From positions 1-35,132 of the forward strand of contig CAIVZM010000046.1 in the NCBI GenBank assembly GCA_903910385.1: DNA of 35,132 bases. Direction: 5' to 3'. The notes under the pieces were generated by a model. That model did not search any database. It was not told the DNA's origin and was given only the letters and a program-made list of their open reading frames with translations. This DNA comes from an uncultured Armatimonadota bacterium. GTDB taxonomy: Bacteria; Armatimonadota; Armatimonadia; Armatimonadales; Armatimonadaceae. Shown in pieces: positions 16,130-29,293 of this stretch; the first letter of the stretch is position 1, and each line of letters starts with the position of its first letter. The translations under genes and the position numbers were made by a program.

Positions 16130-19100
16130 CTACTTCACCAGAACCGGGGGCAACTCCGGGGCGGTGGGGTCGTAGTTGAGGACGGGGGCGCACCAGCGTT
16201 CGACTTCTTCGATGGGCCACTTTTTACGGGCGGCGTAGTCGATGACCTGGTCGCGGTCGATCTTGCCGACGGCGAAATACTGCGCCTGCGGATGCGCCAG
16301 ATAGATGCCGCTGACGGACGCGCCGGGATACATGGCGAGACTCGAAGTGAGAGTGATACCGATGGTTTCCTCCACATCCAGCAAACTCCACAGAGTGAGG
16401 CGCTCGGTGTGGTCGGGGCAGGCGGGATAGCCCCAGGCGGGACGGATGCCCCGGTACTTTTCGCGGATCAGGTCGTCGGGGGTGAGATTTTCGCTCTTGC
16501 CGTAGCCCCACTCGTCGCGGACTTCCTTGTGGAGGGCTTCGGCGAAGGCTTCGGCGAGACGGTCGGCGAGAGCGGATGCCATAATGGCATTGTAGTCGTC
16601 GTTCTGCGCCTTGAACTCGGCGACCAGCGCTTCCAGCCCGATTCCCGTTGTCACCGCGAACGCGCCGATGGTATCCGGCAGTTTCGTCTGCTTCGGGGCG
16701 ACATAGTCGGCGAGGGACTTGTTGGGTTCGCCGCTGGTCTTTTCGGACTGCTGACGCAGCAGGTGGAAGCGCCAATCCTCCACAGAGTAATCGTCGTCGC
16801 CGTAAATGACGATATCGTCACCGTCCGAGTGCGCCGGGAAGATGCCGTAGATCCCTTTCGCCGTCAGTTTTTTCTCACGGACGATATAGGCGAGCAGTTC
16901 CTGCGCGTCTTCGTAGAGCTTTTTGGCTTCGATTCCCACATACTCATCGTCGAAGATGTCCGGGAATTTGCCGCGCAACTCCCAGGTCAGGAAGAACGGC
17001 GTCCAGTCGATATACGGGACGAGCGCTTCGAGCGGGTAATCGTTGAAGTGGCGAATGCCGGTGAACGACGGCGTCGCGATATCCTCCGCGTCCCATTCGA
17101 TCTTCGCTTTGTTCGCCAGCGCATCCGCGTAGGACAGCATGGCTTTGTCGCGGCGTTTACCGGTATGGGCGGCGCGGGCGGCTTCCTGTTCGGAGTTGTT
17201 TTCTGCGAGGAAGACGGACGATGTTTCCGGGTCGATCACATTGCTGACCACGCCGACGGCGCGAGATGCATCCAGAACATGGATGACGCCGTTCGGATAG
17301 AAAGGCGCGATTTTGACCGCCGTATGCACCCGGCTGGTGGTCGCGCCGCCGATCAGCAACGGGATGGTGAACCCTTCCCGCTTCATTTCGCGGGCGACAT
17401 GGATCATTTCATCCAGCGACGGCGTAATCAACCCGGAGAGGCCGATCACATCCACCTTTTCCCGCCGCGCCGTCTCCAGAATCTTGTCGGCGGGAACCAT
17501 GACACCCATATCGATGACTTCGTAGTTGTTGCACCCGAGGACGACGCCGACGATGTTCTTGCCGATATCGTGGACATCGCCCTTGACGGTCGCCATCAAA
17601 ACTTTGCCCTGCGCCTTGGCTTCGCCGCCGTTCTGGGTCAGCAACGCCTTTTCCGCTTCCAGATAGGGTGTCAGCACCGCGACCGATTTCTTCATGACGC
17701 GAGCGGACTTGACTACCTGCGGCAGGAACATCTTCCCGGCGCCGAACAGGTCGCCGACCACGTTCATGCCTTCCATCAGCGGGCCTTCGATGACCAGCAG
17801 GGGGCGACCCAGTTTTTCGAGGGCTTCCAGCGTGTCGGTTTCGATATGGTCGGTGACTCCTCGCAAAAGCGCGTACCCCAGACGTTCCTCCACCGAACGA
17901 TTGCGCCATTCTTCCGCCGCAACATCCGCTTTTTTGCCCGTCCCCTTCACCGATTCGGCGAAGGTGATCAGGCGTTCGGTGGCGTCCGGGCGACGGTTGA
18001 GTAGCACATCCTCGACATGCTCCAGAAGGTCTTTCGGGATATCATCGTAGACCGTCAGTTGTCCGGCATTGACAATTCCCATGTCCATTCCCGCCTGAAT
18101 CGCATGGTACAGGAACGCCGAATGCATGGCTTCGCGCACCACATTATTGCCCCGGAACGAGAACGAGATGTTGGAGACGCCGCCGCTGACCTTGGCGTAG
18201 GGCAGATTCTCCTTGATCCATTTCGTGGCGCGGAGGAAATCGACGGCGTAGTTGGAATGCTCTTCCATGCCGGTGCCGACCACCAGAATATTGGGGTCGA
18301 AGATGATGTCCTGCGGCGGGAACCCGACTTCTTCGGTCAGGATGCGGTAGGCGCGGGAGCAAACCTCGACGCGACGGTCGAAATCGTCCGCCTGCCCCTT
18401 CTCATCGAACGCCATGACGACCACGGCGGCGCCGTACTCATGCACCTTCTTCGCCCGCTGTTTGAAGATTTCTTCGCCGTCCTTCAGGCTGATCGAGTTG
18501 ACAATCCCCTTGCCGACACAGCACTTCAGACCTGCCTCGATCACCTCGAAGCGGGACGAGTCGATCATCAGCGGTACGCGGTTGATACCCGGTTCGCCCT
18601 GGATCAGGTTCAGGAACGTCGTCATACACGCTTCCCGGTCGAGCATTCCCTGATCATCGAAGCAGATGTCCAGAACCTGCGCTCCGGAATCCACCTGCTG
18701 TTGCGCGACAGTCAGCGCCTCCTCGAACTTTTCTTCCTGGATCAGCTTGAGGAATTTGGACGATCCCGCGACATTGCACCGCTCGCCGATATTGATGAAG
18801 TTGGTTTCCGGGCGCACGACAAACGGCAATGTCCCCGACAGGCGCAAATACGGTTCGATTGTCGGGGGGGTGCGCGGAGTCACTCCGGCTATCGCCTGCC
18901 CGATCCGCCGGATATGCTCCGGTGTCGAGCCGCAACAGCCGCCGATAACATTCGCCCAGCCATTGGCGGCCCACTCGCCCAGATAATTCGCCATATCATC
19001 GGCGCTCAAATCGAAGCCGGTTTCCGCCATCGGGTTGGGCAATCCGGCGTTCGGGTAAGCGATAATGGACAAGCCGGTCAAGCCGGAAAGCTCTTCGATA

Positions 19101-19858
19101 AACGGGCGCATCTGGATCGGGCCCAGACCGCAGTTCAGTCCGACCGCATCCAGCGGCGCATGGGAGATAGAGTCCCACATGGCGGCGACGCTCTGCCCGG
19201 AAAGGTTGCCGCCCGCCAGGTCGGTAATCGACAGCGATGCGAACAACGGGACACGACGCGCCCCTTCATCGAACAATTGCTGAATGGCGAACAATGCCGC
19301 TTTCAGGTTCAGCGTGTCGAAAGTGGTTTCGCAAAGCAGAATATCGACGCCGCCTTCGAGCAGGGCTTGCGCCTGATCGTAGTACGCCGCCGCCAGTTCA
19401 TCGAATGTCACATTGCGGTACGCGGGACGCTCGGAATCCACAATGACGGACGCGCTCCGGTTCATCGGGCCGATAGACCCCGCCACCCAGCGAGGCTTGT
19501 CCGGGTTGGTCGCCGTCGCTTCATCCGCCGCCTGTCGCGCCAGCTTCGCGCCTTCCAGATTCATCTCGCGCACATACGATTCCAGTCCGTAGTCCGACTG
19601 AGAGATGGAGGTAGCGGTGAACGTGTTCGTCTCGATAATATCCGCGCCTGCCTCCAGATACGCCCGGTGTACTCCCAGAACGATTTCCGGCGCGGTCAAA
19701 TTCAGCAGATCGGGATTATTCTTGACATCGGAAGGATGATCGGCGAATCGTTTCCCGCGATAATCGGCTTCCGTGAGCTTTTTGCTATGCAAAAGCACGC
19801 CCATAGAGCCATCCAGCAGGAGAATTCGTTTAGAAAGGTGTTCGCGCAGATTATTCAT
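16130..19858 (-). CDS. metH: Cobalamin-dependent methionine synthase MetH
   Basis: The 1242-residue protein has all four MetH modules. The homocysteine domain (1 to about 325) has zinc ligands Cys243 (LNCGLGP) and Cys308-Cys309 (GGCCGS). The pterin-binding domain (about 350-620) contains [14 protein letters not shown] and [10 protein letters not shown]. The cap and B12 domain (about 640-880) has DVHDIG with cobalt-ligand His763. The C-terminal activation domain (about 900-1242) includes [17 protein letters not shown], the AdoMet-binding signature. It transfers the methyl group of methyltetrahydrofolate to homocysteine, so the organism needs or imports B12. No cobalamin or SAM riboswitch is visible upstream; instead TATAAT lies 9 bases before the ATG with no ribosome site, which suggests a leaderless message. 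Confidence 0.98.
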
Positions 19859-19867
19859 GACAGACTA

Positions 19868-19873
19868 ATTATA
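19868..19873 (-). promoter_or_regulatory. -10 element of metH (near-leaderless)
   Basis: TATAAT on the minus strand ends 9 bases before the metH ATG at 19858, so transcription should start within about 3 bases of the start codon. No convincing -35 at the right distance; TTGCGG at 19895-19900 is too far. Confidence 0.5.
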
Positions 19874-19997
19874 CCCCGTTCCGCTAAAGACGTTCCGCAA
19901 GCGACCATACCCGGAATTCTGAGAAGCCGGGCATGATAAAGGGACTGTAAACCTGCGGGCGTGGTAACCGGGCTTAGGGGAGTTTTTCCAAATCAAG

Positions 19998-20049
19998 TTG
20001 TTTGAATACGTTCTGTCAAATTATGATTTGACAGAACGTATTCAAACAA
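19998..20049. repeat. 52-bp perfect palindrome (24-bp arms, 4-base loop)
   Basis: The left arm (19998-20021, starting TTGTTTGAATACG and ending CTGTCAAAT) is exactly complementary to the right arm (20026-20049) around TATG. It lies about 140 bases upstream of metH and 266 bases upstream of the lipoprotein gene. No T-run follows on either strand, so it is not a standard terminator. It is AT-richer than the surrounding sequence. A large operator, a cruciform or a tiny mobile palindrome are possible. Confidence 0.9.
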
Positions 20050-20242
20050 AATACCGTCAGGTGATGCATCGTCCGATTCTCAGCGATACTGCGCCCATCT
20101 TTAATCGCTCCACCGAACGCGACCCAATAGGAGTTTCGGCGTAAACGCTCGTCGATCAAGCCTTCTGCCTATCATGCGATCTCTGGCTATTGGGTTTTGG
20201 TAGGTGGGAGGCTTTTTCAACGCTTGATTTTCCAGAGCTTGC
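20050..20242. other. Non-coding spacer
   Basis: No convincing gene. A 26-codon frame (20064-20144, MHRPILSDTAPIFNRS...) has only a poor ribosome site and no recognisable features. ACCCAATAG (near 20122) and CTATTGGGT (near 20187) form a distant inverted repeat of 9 bp. The end of the spacer carries GGAGGCTTTTT-CAACG, also found at 4515-4535. Confidence 0.4.
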
Positions 20243-20274
20243 TTGACAAAATTTAACTGTTCAGTATATACTGA
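20243..20274 (+). promoter_or_regulatory. Promoter with palindromic operator over the -10
   Basis: TTGACA (20243-20248), 18 bases, TATACT (20267-20272). The perfect 14-base palindrome TCAGTATATACTGA (20261-20274) covers the -10 region. It lies 40 bases before the lipoprotein gene and could be a repressor site. Confidence 0.55.
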
Positions 20275-20315
20275 TTTTATCCTAACAAGTCTGGTTTAAT
20301 CCCGCTGAGACAATC

Positions 20316-20540
20316 ATGAATTCCAGAGCCTTTCTGACTTCAAGCGCGTTTTGCGCCGCTCTTCTTCTGGGGAGTATCGTGTTATCAGCTTGTGATTCCG
20401 CCAAACCGGCGGAAACGGCGTCCCCTGCCGCGCCTGTGGGCGGAACTTCGGCGACTACTGCGCCCGCGAATACGGGCGTCGTCAATAAATCCTCCGCCGC
20501 GAAGGTGCGTGAGGAAGACCGTAAGATAGACGGTCCCTGA
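20316..20540 (+). CDS. Small predicted lipoprotein (74 aa)
   Basis: The protein opens MNSRAFLTSSAFCAALLLGSIVLSAC, a signal peptide ending in lipobox LSAC at residues 23-26, so the mature protein is a lipid-anchored peptide of about 49 residues. That peptide is low complexity (Ala, Pro, Thr, Ser) and ends in a charged KVREEDRKIDGP tail. A good promoter with a palindromic operator precedes it. It sits 137 bases before the second DUF1559 gene on the same strand and may be co-transcribed with it, parallel to the small membrane protein before DUF1559 copy 1. Function unknown. Confidence 0.7.
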   Translation: MNSRAFLTSSAFCAALLLGSIVLSACDSAKPAETASPAAPVGGTSATTAPANTGVVNKSSAAKVREEDRKIDGP

Positions 20541-20677
20541 TATTTTTGCGGGATTTCGAATCGGCGAGGATGCCGATACGAAAGCCCGGTCATAGACTCA
20601 TTATCCCTTTCCACTGTTTGCAATTTTCATCGTTCATCGTCCTGTCGTTCTATCGTTAGCTTCATAAGGAGCGTTTC

Positions 20678-21876: not shown

Positions 21877-21909
21877 AAAGCCCTGAGACATCGAATGTCT
21901 CAGGGCTTT
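21877..21909 (-). terminator. Terminator of DUF1559 copy 3
   Basis: A perfect 15-bp stem AAAGCCCTGAGACAT / ATGTCTCAGGGCTTT with a 3-base loop, 24 bases beyond the stop. It can work in both directions: CTTTTCC follows on plus and CTTTAAATTATTT on minus. Confidence 0.8.
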
Positions 21910-21933
21910 TCCGCATGTTTGTTCTCCTCCGGT

Positions 21934-22818
21934 TTACGGGCAGGGGGAGTCTTCGGAGTCGCCGATGGCGGTTTCGGGGACGCCGTGCAGATCGTTGTAC
22001 GGATTCGCCGGGGTGCTGACCGAACTTTGCAGTTCGCTATCGGACTTCCGCAACGGTTCGTTGGTGCGCCACGAATAGTAGGGAATGCCGGGACGCTTCG
22101 CGCCTTCCGGGGTTATACCGCCGGGAAAGGTCGCGCCGTACTTGAACCATTTGCTGTGACCGTCCGAGAAGTTGACTGTCACGCCGTCCGTGTGCTGCGC
22201 CCGTCCCAGAAAGTTGTAGTAATCCAGATACGGACTGGCTTTCATGTAGCCATCGAAGAACATGATGGTATCGACCGGCAGTGGCGTTCCGGCAAGGGCG
22301 GTGGGCGGCGTCTTTTTGTTGAACGGTGTCCCGCACAGGTTTTCGCCGAACAATCCCAGATTCGGCACGTACCCGACATACTGGAAGGTTCCGTTCTTGA
22401 GACCGACATTCGCCAGCCGCGATTTCCAGTCGATACCGGGCTTGTAGCTGGGGCACTGGAGGATTTCGACGTTCTTGAGGTACGGCGCGATGGCATCGTA
22501 CACCGAGAAGCCGGTATTGGGCGCCTGCACATAGATACTCATCGGGAACGTTTCATCGTAGTCCTGCACATACATCAGGGTCGCCAGCGCGAGTTGCTTG
22601 CTGTTGGAGAGGCAGGAAGTTTGCCGCGCCTTCTCGCGTGCCTGCGCGAAGACGGGAAAAAGGATCGCGGCGAGTATCGCGATGATGGCGATGACGACGA
22701 GCAGTTCGATGAGCGTAAATCCGAAGGATTTCCGAGACGTAAAACCCTGAACGCGACGGGTTACGCCGGCTTCGATGTCGGTATTGTCGATAAAGTGACG
22801 AGAAGTGCTTGCTTTCAT
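21934..22818 (-). CDS. DUF1559 / H-x9-DG pseudopilin-like protein, copy 3
   Basis: The start at 22818 has CAGGA about 6 bases upstream. A 33-residue leader ([18 protein letters not shown]...) precedes [20 protein letters not shown] and [22 protein letters not shown], so its prepilin leader is longer than in copies 1 and 2. The 294-residue protein has [23 protein letters not shown] and [16 protein letters not shown], the H-x9-DG motif. It is probably an exported pseudopilin-like or surface protein. It converges on copy 2, and its upstream region carries four 11-bp tandem repeats (22885-22928). No other pilus gene is near. Confidence 0.92.
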
Positions 22819-22884
22819 GAGATTCCTGTGTTCGATTGTTGTTTTCGCTTGTTGTGTTCGTTTGTTGTGTTCGGTACGTGCAAC

Positions 22885-22928
22885 GCTATCGAAACGCTAT
22901 CGAAACGCTATCGAAACGCTATCGAAGC
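22885..22928 (-). repeat. Four tandem 11-bp iteron-like repeats
   Basis: GCTATCGAAAC is repeated four times (22885-22895, 22896-22906, 22907-22917, and with one change 22918-22928), 67 bases upstream of DUF1559 copy 3. A second local repeat, TTGTTGTGTTCG twice, lies between it and the gene. The 11-bp period keeps each unit on the same face of the helix. Confidence 0.85.
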
Positions 22929-23250
22929 GCCCCCTTATCGCCTGAAGTCCCGAAGGACAACCAGATAAAACCGGGGAAGTTTCAGCGCTACCTCCGTAGA
23001 GGATGCGTTGCAACTTTGCATCGCATGGGTGATGTCGTTTTCGCTAAATTGTTGGATTTGATCCGCCGACAGAAAACATTTCTAAGACTTTCCATCGATG
23101 GACGAAGTTCCAGCCTCGCGAACCCGTATCAGTATATCATCACTCAACATATCATCACTCAACAAGCAAGGGGGATATCCTACCGGGGTTGAACCTGCGC
23201 TATCTTGTTGGAAACCTGTTGTCGATTGGATGCACGAAGCATTGCCCTGA
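22929..23250. other. Non-coding spacer with possible promoter
   Basis: No gene recognised. On the minus strand TGATATACT (-10 at 23131-23136) is an extended -10 that could serve DUF1559 copy 3 about 310 bases away. A 15-base unit ATATCATCACTCAAC is duplicated at 23134-23148 and 23149-23163. Confidence 0.3.
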
Positions 23251-24023: not shown

Positions 24024-24110
24024 CGATTTATCGGCGAATGACGGGGCATTGGCGAATGACGGGGCATTCGCCCTACATATAACCGCACGGTAACGCGGAA
24101 CGGTGCAGGT
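24024..24110. repeat. Dispersed repeat, copy near VKOR gene
   Basis: Contains GGCGAATGACGGGGCATT twice, then CGCCCTAC and CCGCACGGTAACGCGGAAC followed by GGTGCAGG. The same elements recur in the larger block at 28141-28427. The two halves (GGCGAATGxCGGGGCATTCGCC) are self-complementary in part. Confidence 0.85.
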
Positions 24111-28140: not shown

Positions 28141-28427
28141 TCGTAGGGCGAATGCCCCGTCATTCGCCGATTCCCCGTCATTCGCCGATTCCCCGTCATT
28201 CGCCAATTCCCCGTCGTCCGCCGATTCCCTGCCTACCCGCACGGTAACGCGGAACTGTGCAGGTCGCGATTGATCGGCGAATGACGGGGCATTCGCCCTA
28301 CGAATACCCGCACGGTAACGCGGAACCGTGCAGGTCGCGATTGATTGGCGGACGACGGGGCATTCGCCCTACAAATTCCCGATGGGGCATTGGCGAATGA
28401 CGGGGCATTCGCCCTACGGTGGGTCTG
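28141..28427. repeat. Dispersed repeat block with 18-bp tandem array
   Basis: Bases 28155-28226 are four copies of an 18-base unit CCCCGTCATTCGCCGATT. After them two copies of a roughly 75-base module (CCGCACGGTAACGCGGAAC, GTGCAGGTCGCGATTGAT, then GGCGAATGACGGGGCATTCG and CCCTAC) follow, and a partial third. The same module occurs at 24024-24110. No gene is present; translation only gives artefactual APSFANAPS repeats. Confidence 0.9.
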
Positions 28428-29049: not shown

Positions 29050-29102
29050 ACGGCGGGGTTCCGTTCGAGGGAGAAGTACTCTCCGGAACGGAACCCCGCC
29101 GT
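29050..29102 (+). terminator. 17-bp hairpin after the Hfq-like gene
   Basis: ACGGCGGGGTTCCGTTC (29050-29066) and its exact complement (29086-29102) enclose a 19-base loop, 8 bases past the stop. No T-run follows. It probably ends or protects the transcript of the small basic and Hfq-like genes. Confidence 0.6.
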
Positions 29103-29221: not shown

Positions 29222-29293
29222 AGGCGCCGAGCGGAATCGAACCGCTGCATAAAGGCTTTGCAGGCCCCTCCCTTACCACTTGGGCACGGCGCC
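29222..29293 (-). tRNA. tRNA-Cys (anticodon GCA)
   Basis: On the minus strand the 72-base sequence folds as a cloverleaf. The acceptor stem is GGCGCCG / CGGCGCC, the D arm CCC-AAGTGGTAA-GGG, the anticodon loop CTGCAAA with anticodon GCA, the variable loop has 5 bases and the T arm is AGCGG-TTCGATT-CCGCT. The discriminator base is U, as usual for cysteine tRNA. CCA is not encoded. The anticodon stem has two G-U pairs (GGGGC / GCCTT). Confidence 0.95.

Follow-up and report, generated by a model that had tools for sequence, protein, structure and literature searches.

Architecture of the locus

The window, i.e. the whole stretch of 35,132 nucleotides of DNA analysed here, carries a perfect palindrome in the intergenic region ahead of metH (Table 1). 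It had been predicted to be an exact inverted repeat of 52 bases with 24-bp arms and a TATG loop. This was confirmed: the arms at 19998-20021 (TTGTTTGAATACGTTCTGTCAAAT) and 20026-20049 are 100% complementary and enclose a loop of 4 nt, forming the longest perfect inverted repeat of the window. By eye, each arm is itself a weak dyad. As RNA, the 52-mer is predicted to fold at -32.9 kcal/mol and would thus provide the stable hairpin of an intrinsic terminator, while the stem is not G+C-rich as in such terminators (29% G+C) and has an A-rich foot, CAAACAA. We shuffled mononucleotides once in 300-nt blocks, using 1,079,067 bases from the same genome plus 400,000 from a relative; not one hairpin reached an arm length of 13 bp. 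Arms of 24 bp are therefore not due to chance.

Table 1. Features around the palindrome (positions in the window).
Feature	Position	Strand	Description
metH, B12-dependent methionine synthase	16130..19858	-	TIGR02082, 1620.6 bits vs cut-off 1010.85
TATAAT box before metH	19868..19873	-	ends 9 nt ahead of the metH ATG
Minus-strand tail after the stem, CTTGATTTGGAA	19986..19997	-	weak, interrupted T-tract
Perfect inverted repeat	19998..20049		24-bp arms, TATG loop
Possible plus-strand terminator	20158..20217	+	17-bp stem including G-U pairs, 23-nt loop, then T run
Sigma-70-type promoter of the lipoprotein-like gene	20243..20272	+	TTGACA-18-TATACT, 11/12 matches
Perfect 14-bp palindrome over the -10 box	20261..20274		TCAGTATATACTGA
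Small orphan lipoprotein-like reading frame	20316..20540	+	74 aa, lipobox-like LSAC by eye

The predicted divergent arrangement of the neighbours was borne out. The palindrome lies 139 bp from the start codon of metH on the minus strand and 266 bp from the 74-aa lipoprotein-like frame on the plus strand. While metH is present in 12 of 12 genomes of the family, the lipoprotein-like frame gave weak matches only (best E values of 0.011 to 0.092) in 5 of the 11 other family genomes.

Given the position of the TATAAT box 9 nt before the ATG, the start of the metH RNA is probably located downstream of the palindrome. This disfavours a role of the palindrome as an attenuator. By eye, a TAnnnT box is found 6-9 nt ahead of the metH ATG in 6 of 8 relatives. 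A metH leader or riboswitch was disfavoured on the same grounds, and also by the lack of an Rfam match and of any perfect hairpin of at least 11 bp at the metH loci of 7 relatives. On the other side, the scan for sigma-70-type promoters found the one promoter of the lipoprotein-like gene, against 1.0 expected in shuffled sequence. Since its -10 box lies inside the perfect 14-bp palindrome, it reads TATACT on both strands. No -35 box was found for a leftward promoter at this symmetric -10. Symmetric promoters that fire in both directions are described for enterobacteria in one report (PMC10268837).

Between the palindrome and this promoter, the region 20060-20250 folds no better than shuffled sequence on either strand (z values of 0.00 and -0.13). 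It contains an imperfect 21-nt inverted repeat (20110-20130 and 20187-20207, 76%) with the motif TAGGTGG in common with the possible terminator at 20158-20217. Because this motif is shared, the two stems would be mutually exclusive.

Further repeats are present elsewhere in the window. At 28155-28381 and 24033-24068 repeats are built from GGCGAATGACGGGGCATTCGCCC and its complement: one unit of 18 nt is present 4.2 times and another of 71 nt 2.1 times, and inverted copies are seen as well. GGCGAATGACGGGG was counted 9 times, distributed over 2 of the 100 sampled stretches. This looks like a local palindromic repeat of the REP type. A second long hairpin with 24-nt arms (88% complementary) lies at 29050-29102 near a tRNA-Cys gene (29222-29293), and two adjacent tandem arrays with 13-nt and 11-nt units were seen at 22827-22930.

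Perfect hairpins in the same genome

We carried out a census of perfect hairpins with arms of at least 13 bp and loops of 3-12 nt in 100 stretches of the same genome, comprising 1,879,067 bases (42%). Genes were called with a greedy longest-frame heuristic, which is not an annotation; for the window the calls were corrected by hand (20282-20623 and 21895-22968 dropped, 20316-20540 and 21934-22818 put in). The sample contained 94 such hairpins. Between convergent genes 33 were found (0.86/kb), between tandem genes 36 (0.30/kb) and between divergent genes six (0.10/kb), among them the palindrome at 19998-20049. Another 15 lay inside frames (0.009/kb), several of them in doubtful short frames, and four at stretch ends. 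A second set with arms of at least 12 bp, from which hairpins less than 40 nt from a stretch end were excluded, comprised 109 hairpins; 85 of these lie at most 80 nt from a gene 3' end. The palindrome is one of the other 24, since neither strand shows a called gene end at a distance of 80 nt or less.

Being dense between convergent genes and located mostly at gene ends, the long perfect stems look like ordinary terminators of this genome. For E. coli, one report assigns most inverted repeats of at least 8 bp near stop codons or gene ends to intrinsic terminators (PMC6060812). The palindrome had originally been considered far longer than needed for a terminator. Its length is indeed unusual, as only one hairpin of the sample is longer, but is compatible with a terminator, since perfect arms of 25 bp (L087), 23 bp (L037) and 22 bp (L107, L145 and L169) occur at gene ends here. 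The palindrome rather stands out by its divergent setting.

Terminator-like features on the minus strand

A lack of a T-run had also been claimed for the palindrome. This holds for the plus strand, where the tail score was 1.02 and nothing T-rich follows the stem, but is less clear for the minus strand, where CTTGATTT, a weak and interrupted T-tract, comes after the stem. The formula for the tail score reportedly follows d'Aubenton Carafa and colleagues. For the minus-strand tail a score of 2.42 was obtained, compared to medians of 2.31 in 59 gene-end hairpins and 1.37 in the background. It equals or exceeds the score of 54% of these gene-end hairpins, while 14% of 5,000 background positions scored as high or higher. 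With this score, the sense side of gene-end hairpins is not told apart from their antisense side (medians of 2.31 and 2.40), such that it is weak evidence: the minus-strand tail may belong to a terminator, with which its score is compatible and no more than that. A terminator scan lists the palindrome as terminator-like on the minus strand.

Like intrinsic (Rho-independent) terminators, including the long bidirectional ones between convergent genes, the palindrome has a 4-nt loop, a long perfect stem and, on one strand only, T-rich sequence behind the stem, and its arm length is similar to that of the gene-end hairpins of this genome. It differs from them by its A+T-rich stem, the A-rich 3' foot, the interrupted T-tract, the divergent setting and the missing adjoining gene end. 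Such a foot is rare, with A exceeding T by at least 4 in 3 of the 59 gene-end hairpins. A gene-end hairpin 9 nt after ahcY (L178:16286-16325) has the A-rich foot AACGAAA and offset T's in the tail AACTTGATTT; another one, 32 nt after its gene (L094:16988-17029), has the foot CAGACAA and offset T's in the tail CGACTTTT. The 10-mer AACTTGATTT is common to the tails of the palindrome and the ahcY hairpin. This is not significant, as 235 of 300 random sets (hairpins less than 30 nt from a stretch end excluded) also share a 10-mer pair.

As best explanation we propose, tentatively and with slightly less than even confidence, an intrinsic-terminator-like hairpin that halts leftward transcription ahead of the metH promoter. 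In minus-strand RNA originating from 20050-20260 the 24-bp stem would form, and RNA polymerase moving leftwards would release at the CTTGATTT tail. Leftward transcription would thereby be kept out of the metH promoter, which lies about 125 bp beyond. As for where this RNA comes from, the likeliest candidate would be the lipoprotein promoter, which could fire both ways from its symmetric -10 (TCAGTATATACTGA); a leftward RNA from there would reach the hairpin after about 210 nt. Alternatively, the RNA could come from a decayed minus-strand gene. The perfect arms may stem from template switching, whatever the present function. From the sequence we infer termination at this site, its target transcript and the insulating role. 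The terminator reading would be in line with the high density of such hairpins between convergent genes, the normality of long arms at gene ends, the minus-strand tail score and the symmetric -10. Against it stand the missing gene end, the low G+C content of the stem, the foot, the interruption of the T-tract and the missing leftward -35.

Copy number and occurrence in other genomes

We searched the own genome (4,465,079 bases in 84 contigs) with a 20-mer of the arm, allowing for up to 3 mismatches. Just the two arms of the palindrome were found and no further copy. With up to 2 mismatches, the only match among 201 genomes of the phylum was the own genome, the 200 others being without one. No match of the palindrome was obtained in collections of plasmids (72,556 records) and phages (50,697 records), and an exact scan of the IMG/VR viral contigs for the arm found none. 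The corresponding scan of GTDB genome contigs gave two one-arm matches, one on an alphaproteobacterial and one on a lachnospiraceal contig, with the second arm absent. By eye, both can be translated in one frame as Leu-Thr-Glu-Arg-Ile-Gln. For a 20-mer in 257 Gb about 0.5 chance matches are estimated.

When the 1,141 bases around the site were compared with 61 genomes, 18 matched including the own one. The 17 others match entirely inside metH (query positions 2-442, with metH beginning at 459), and none among the 60 relatives reaches the palindrome. No perfect hairpin of at least 11 bp was seen at the 7 metH loci of the family that were scanned. At the depth of the genomes compared, all from outside the genus, the palindrome is thus confined to this lineage.

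Pattern searches gave no convincing family of similar hairpins, for which the arms resembling the palindrome at L045:15064 (CGTTTTGTCA) and L094:16988 (TTGTCTGTTTGA) had been considered. With 2 mismatches, TTGTTTGAATACG occurs at 27 sites vs 5 for the reversed control; beyond the two of the palindrome itself these are scattered singles, most in coding-looking contexts.

Alternative explanations

The main rival explanation, which we regard as unlikely though worth serious consideration, is a functionless by-product of template switching during replication. In this scenario, a short inverted repeat near the loop (AAAT..ATTT) would have allowed the nascent strand to fold back and serve as its own template for about 20 nt, before synthesis resumed on the original one. 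The resulting perfect inverted copy would so far have escaped decay. One report describes that template switching can yield perfect hairpins in a single event (PMC8794818). Like such quasipalindrome products, the palindrome has perfect arms and a single copy, was not found in the relatives searched and carries no sign of mobility or conservation. Two other hairpins of the same genome look like copying events. The first is a perfect hairpin with 17-bp arms within a 298-aa frame (L045:15064-15103), by eye just downstream of an apparent gene for RNA polymerase beta'; within the family, weak relatives of this protein are the only ones. In the second (L094:16959-17029), a hairpin arm is also tandemly duplicated: a 19-nt unit (TGTAAAGTCGTTGTCTGTT) occurs twice in a row, its second copy continues into a perfect hairpin whose arms measure 19 bp, and TTGTCTGTTTGA is found in three copies, two direct and one inverted. 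Both cases make a mutational origin of the palindrome plausible, with or without later use. However, selection could also act on the palindrome as a terminator. The L045 frame is one locus and its relatives are just 23-30% identical, such that the case cannot be polarised, and several of the 15 hairpins inside frames belong to the doubtful frames mentioned above. A broader proposal combines both readings: the lineage would keep making long perfect hairpins by template switching, of which a few would be recruited as insulators between divergent promoters that would otherwise fire at each other. Some of the hairpins made in this way would have no clean U-tract and some would lie inside genes (L045, L094 and the palindrome being the examples). 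We consider this proposal improbable.

For a double operator, as suggested in the original prediction, no positive evidence was obtained. Here two inverted regulator sites (TTTGACAGAACGTATTCAAA) between the divergent promoters would control metH and the lipoprotein-like gene jointly. The position between two divergent promoters fits such a role, but the arm has no second copy in the genome, a regulon of the same site at other or orthologous promoters did not emerge from our searches, and the metH loci of the family lack a comparable hairpin. The weak dyad of the arm likewise speaks against it, as does a candidate double site at L032:18513-18555, which by eye looks different in that each half is itself palindromic. 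When 1 mismatch was allowed, the loose pattern TGACARAACGNNTTNAA was matched at 8 sites vs 1 in the reversed control; two are the palindrome, two belong to the hairpin inside the L045 frame and four lie elsewhere. An operator therefore appears to be a doubtful candidate.

We give a similarly low probability to a stable small RNA or to a small plus-strand transcript that would include the palindrome and end at the possible terminator 20158-20217. Such a transcript might carry the 58-codon frame (19968-20144) across the palindrome. In support there are this open frame, the plus-strand stem with its T tail and, by eye, a perfect TTGACA at 20029-20034 in the right arm, followed by TACCGT at a spacing of 18 nt. 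The 58-codon peptide, however, matched no Pfam family, scored 17 bits in its one NCBIfam match, for which the cut-off is 350, and matched only itself in 151 genomes; a hidden small gene through the palindrome is thus unsupported. Nothing at the site reached the gathering score of an Rfam model, the whole window giving only a tRNA. Of 11 sub-threshold Rfam matches, 10 were to microRNA models, an outcome that perfect hairpins in general may produce, and the shuffle-like folding of 20060-20250 on both strands likewise speaks against a structured RNA.

The palindrome may also be a cruciform-forming site. A minimal transposable palindrome (MITE, REP or IS end) is very improbable: the perfect inverted repeat, the AT-rich ends and the intergenic position are in its favour, but within the reach of the collections searched it is disfavoured by the single copy, where MITE and REP elements have several, by the absence elsewhere, including plasmids, phages and viral contigs, and by flanks (CCAAATCAAG / AATACCGTCA) that form no target-site duplication. 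The terminator and the template-switch reading are both more likely than a double operator, a small RNA or a mobile element.

Implications

The palindrome is real, single-copy and lineage-specific, ordinary in kind and unusual in location. It most resembles the transcription-stop hairpins used elsewhere in this genome, its setting being the main peculiarity. Neither insulation nor a mutational scar would alter a general picture. If the palindrome insulates metH from divergent transcription, it would illustrate a natural way in which symmetric promoters are dealt with in bacteria. As the scar of a template switch, it would add a further case of a perfect stem formed in one step.
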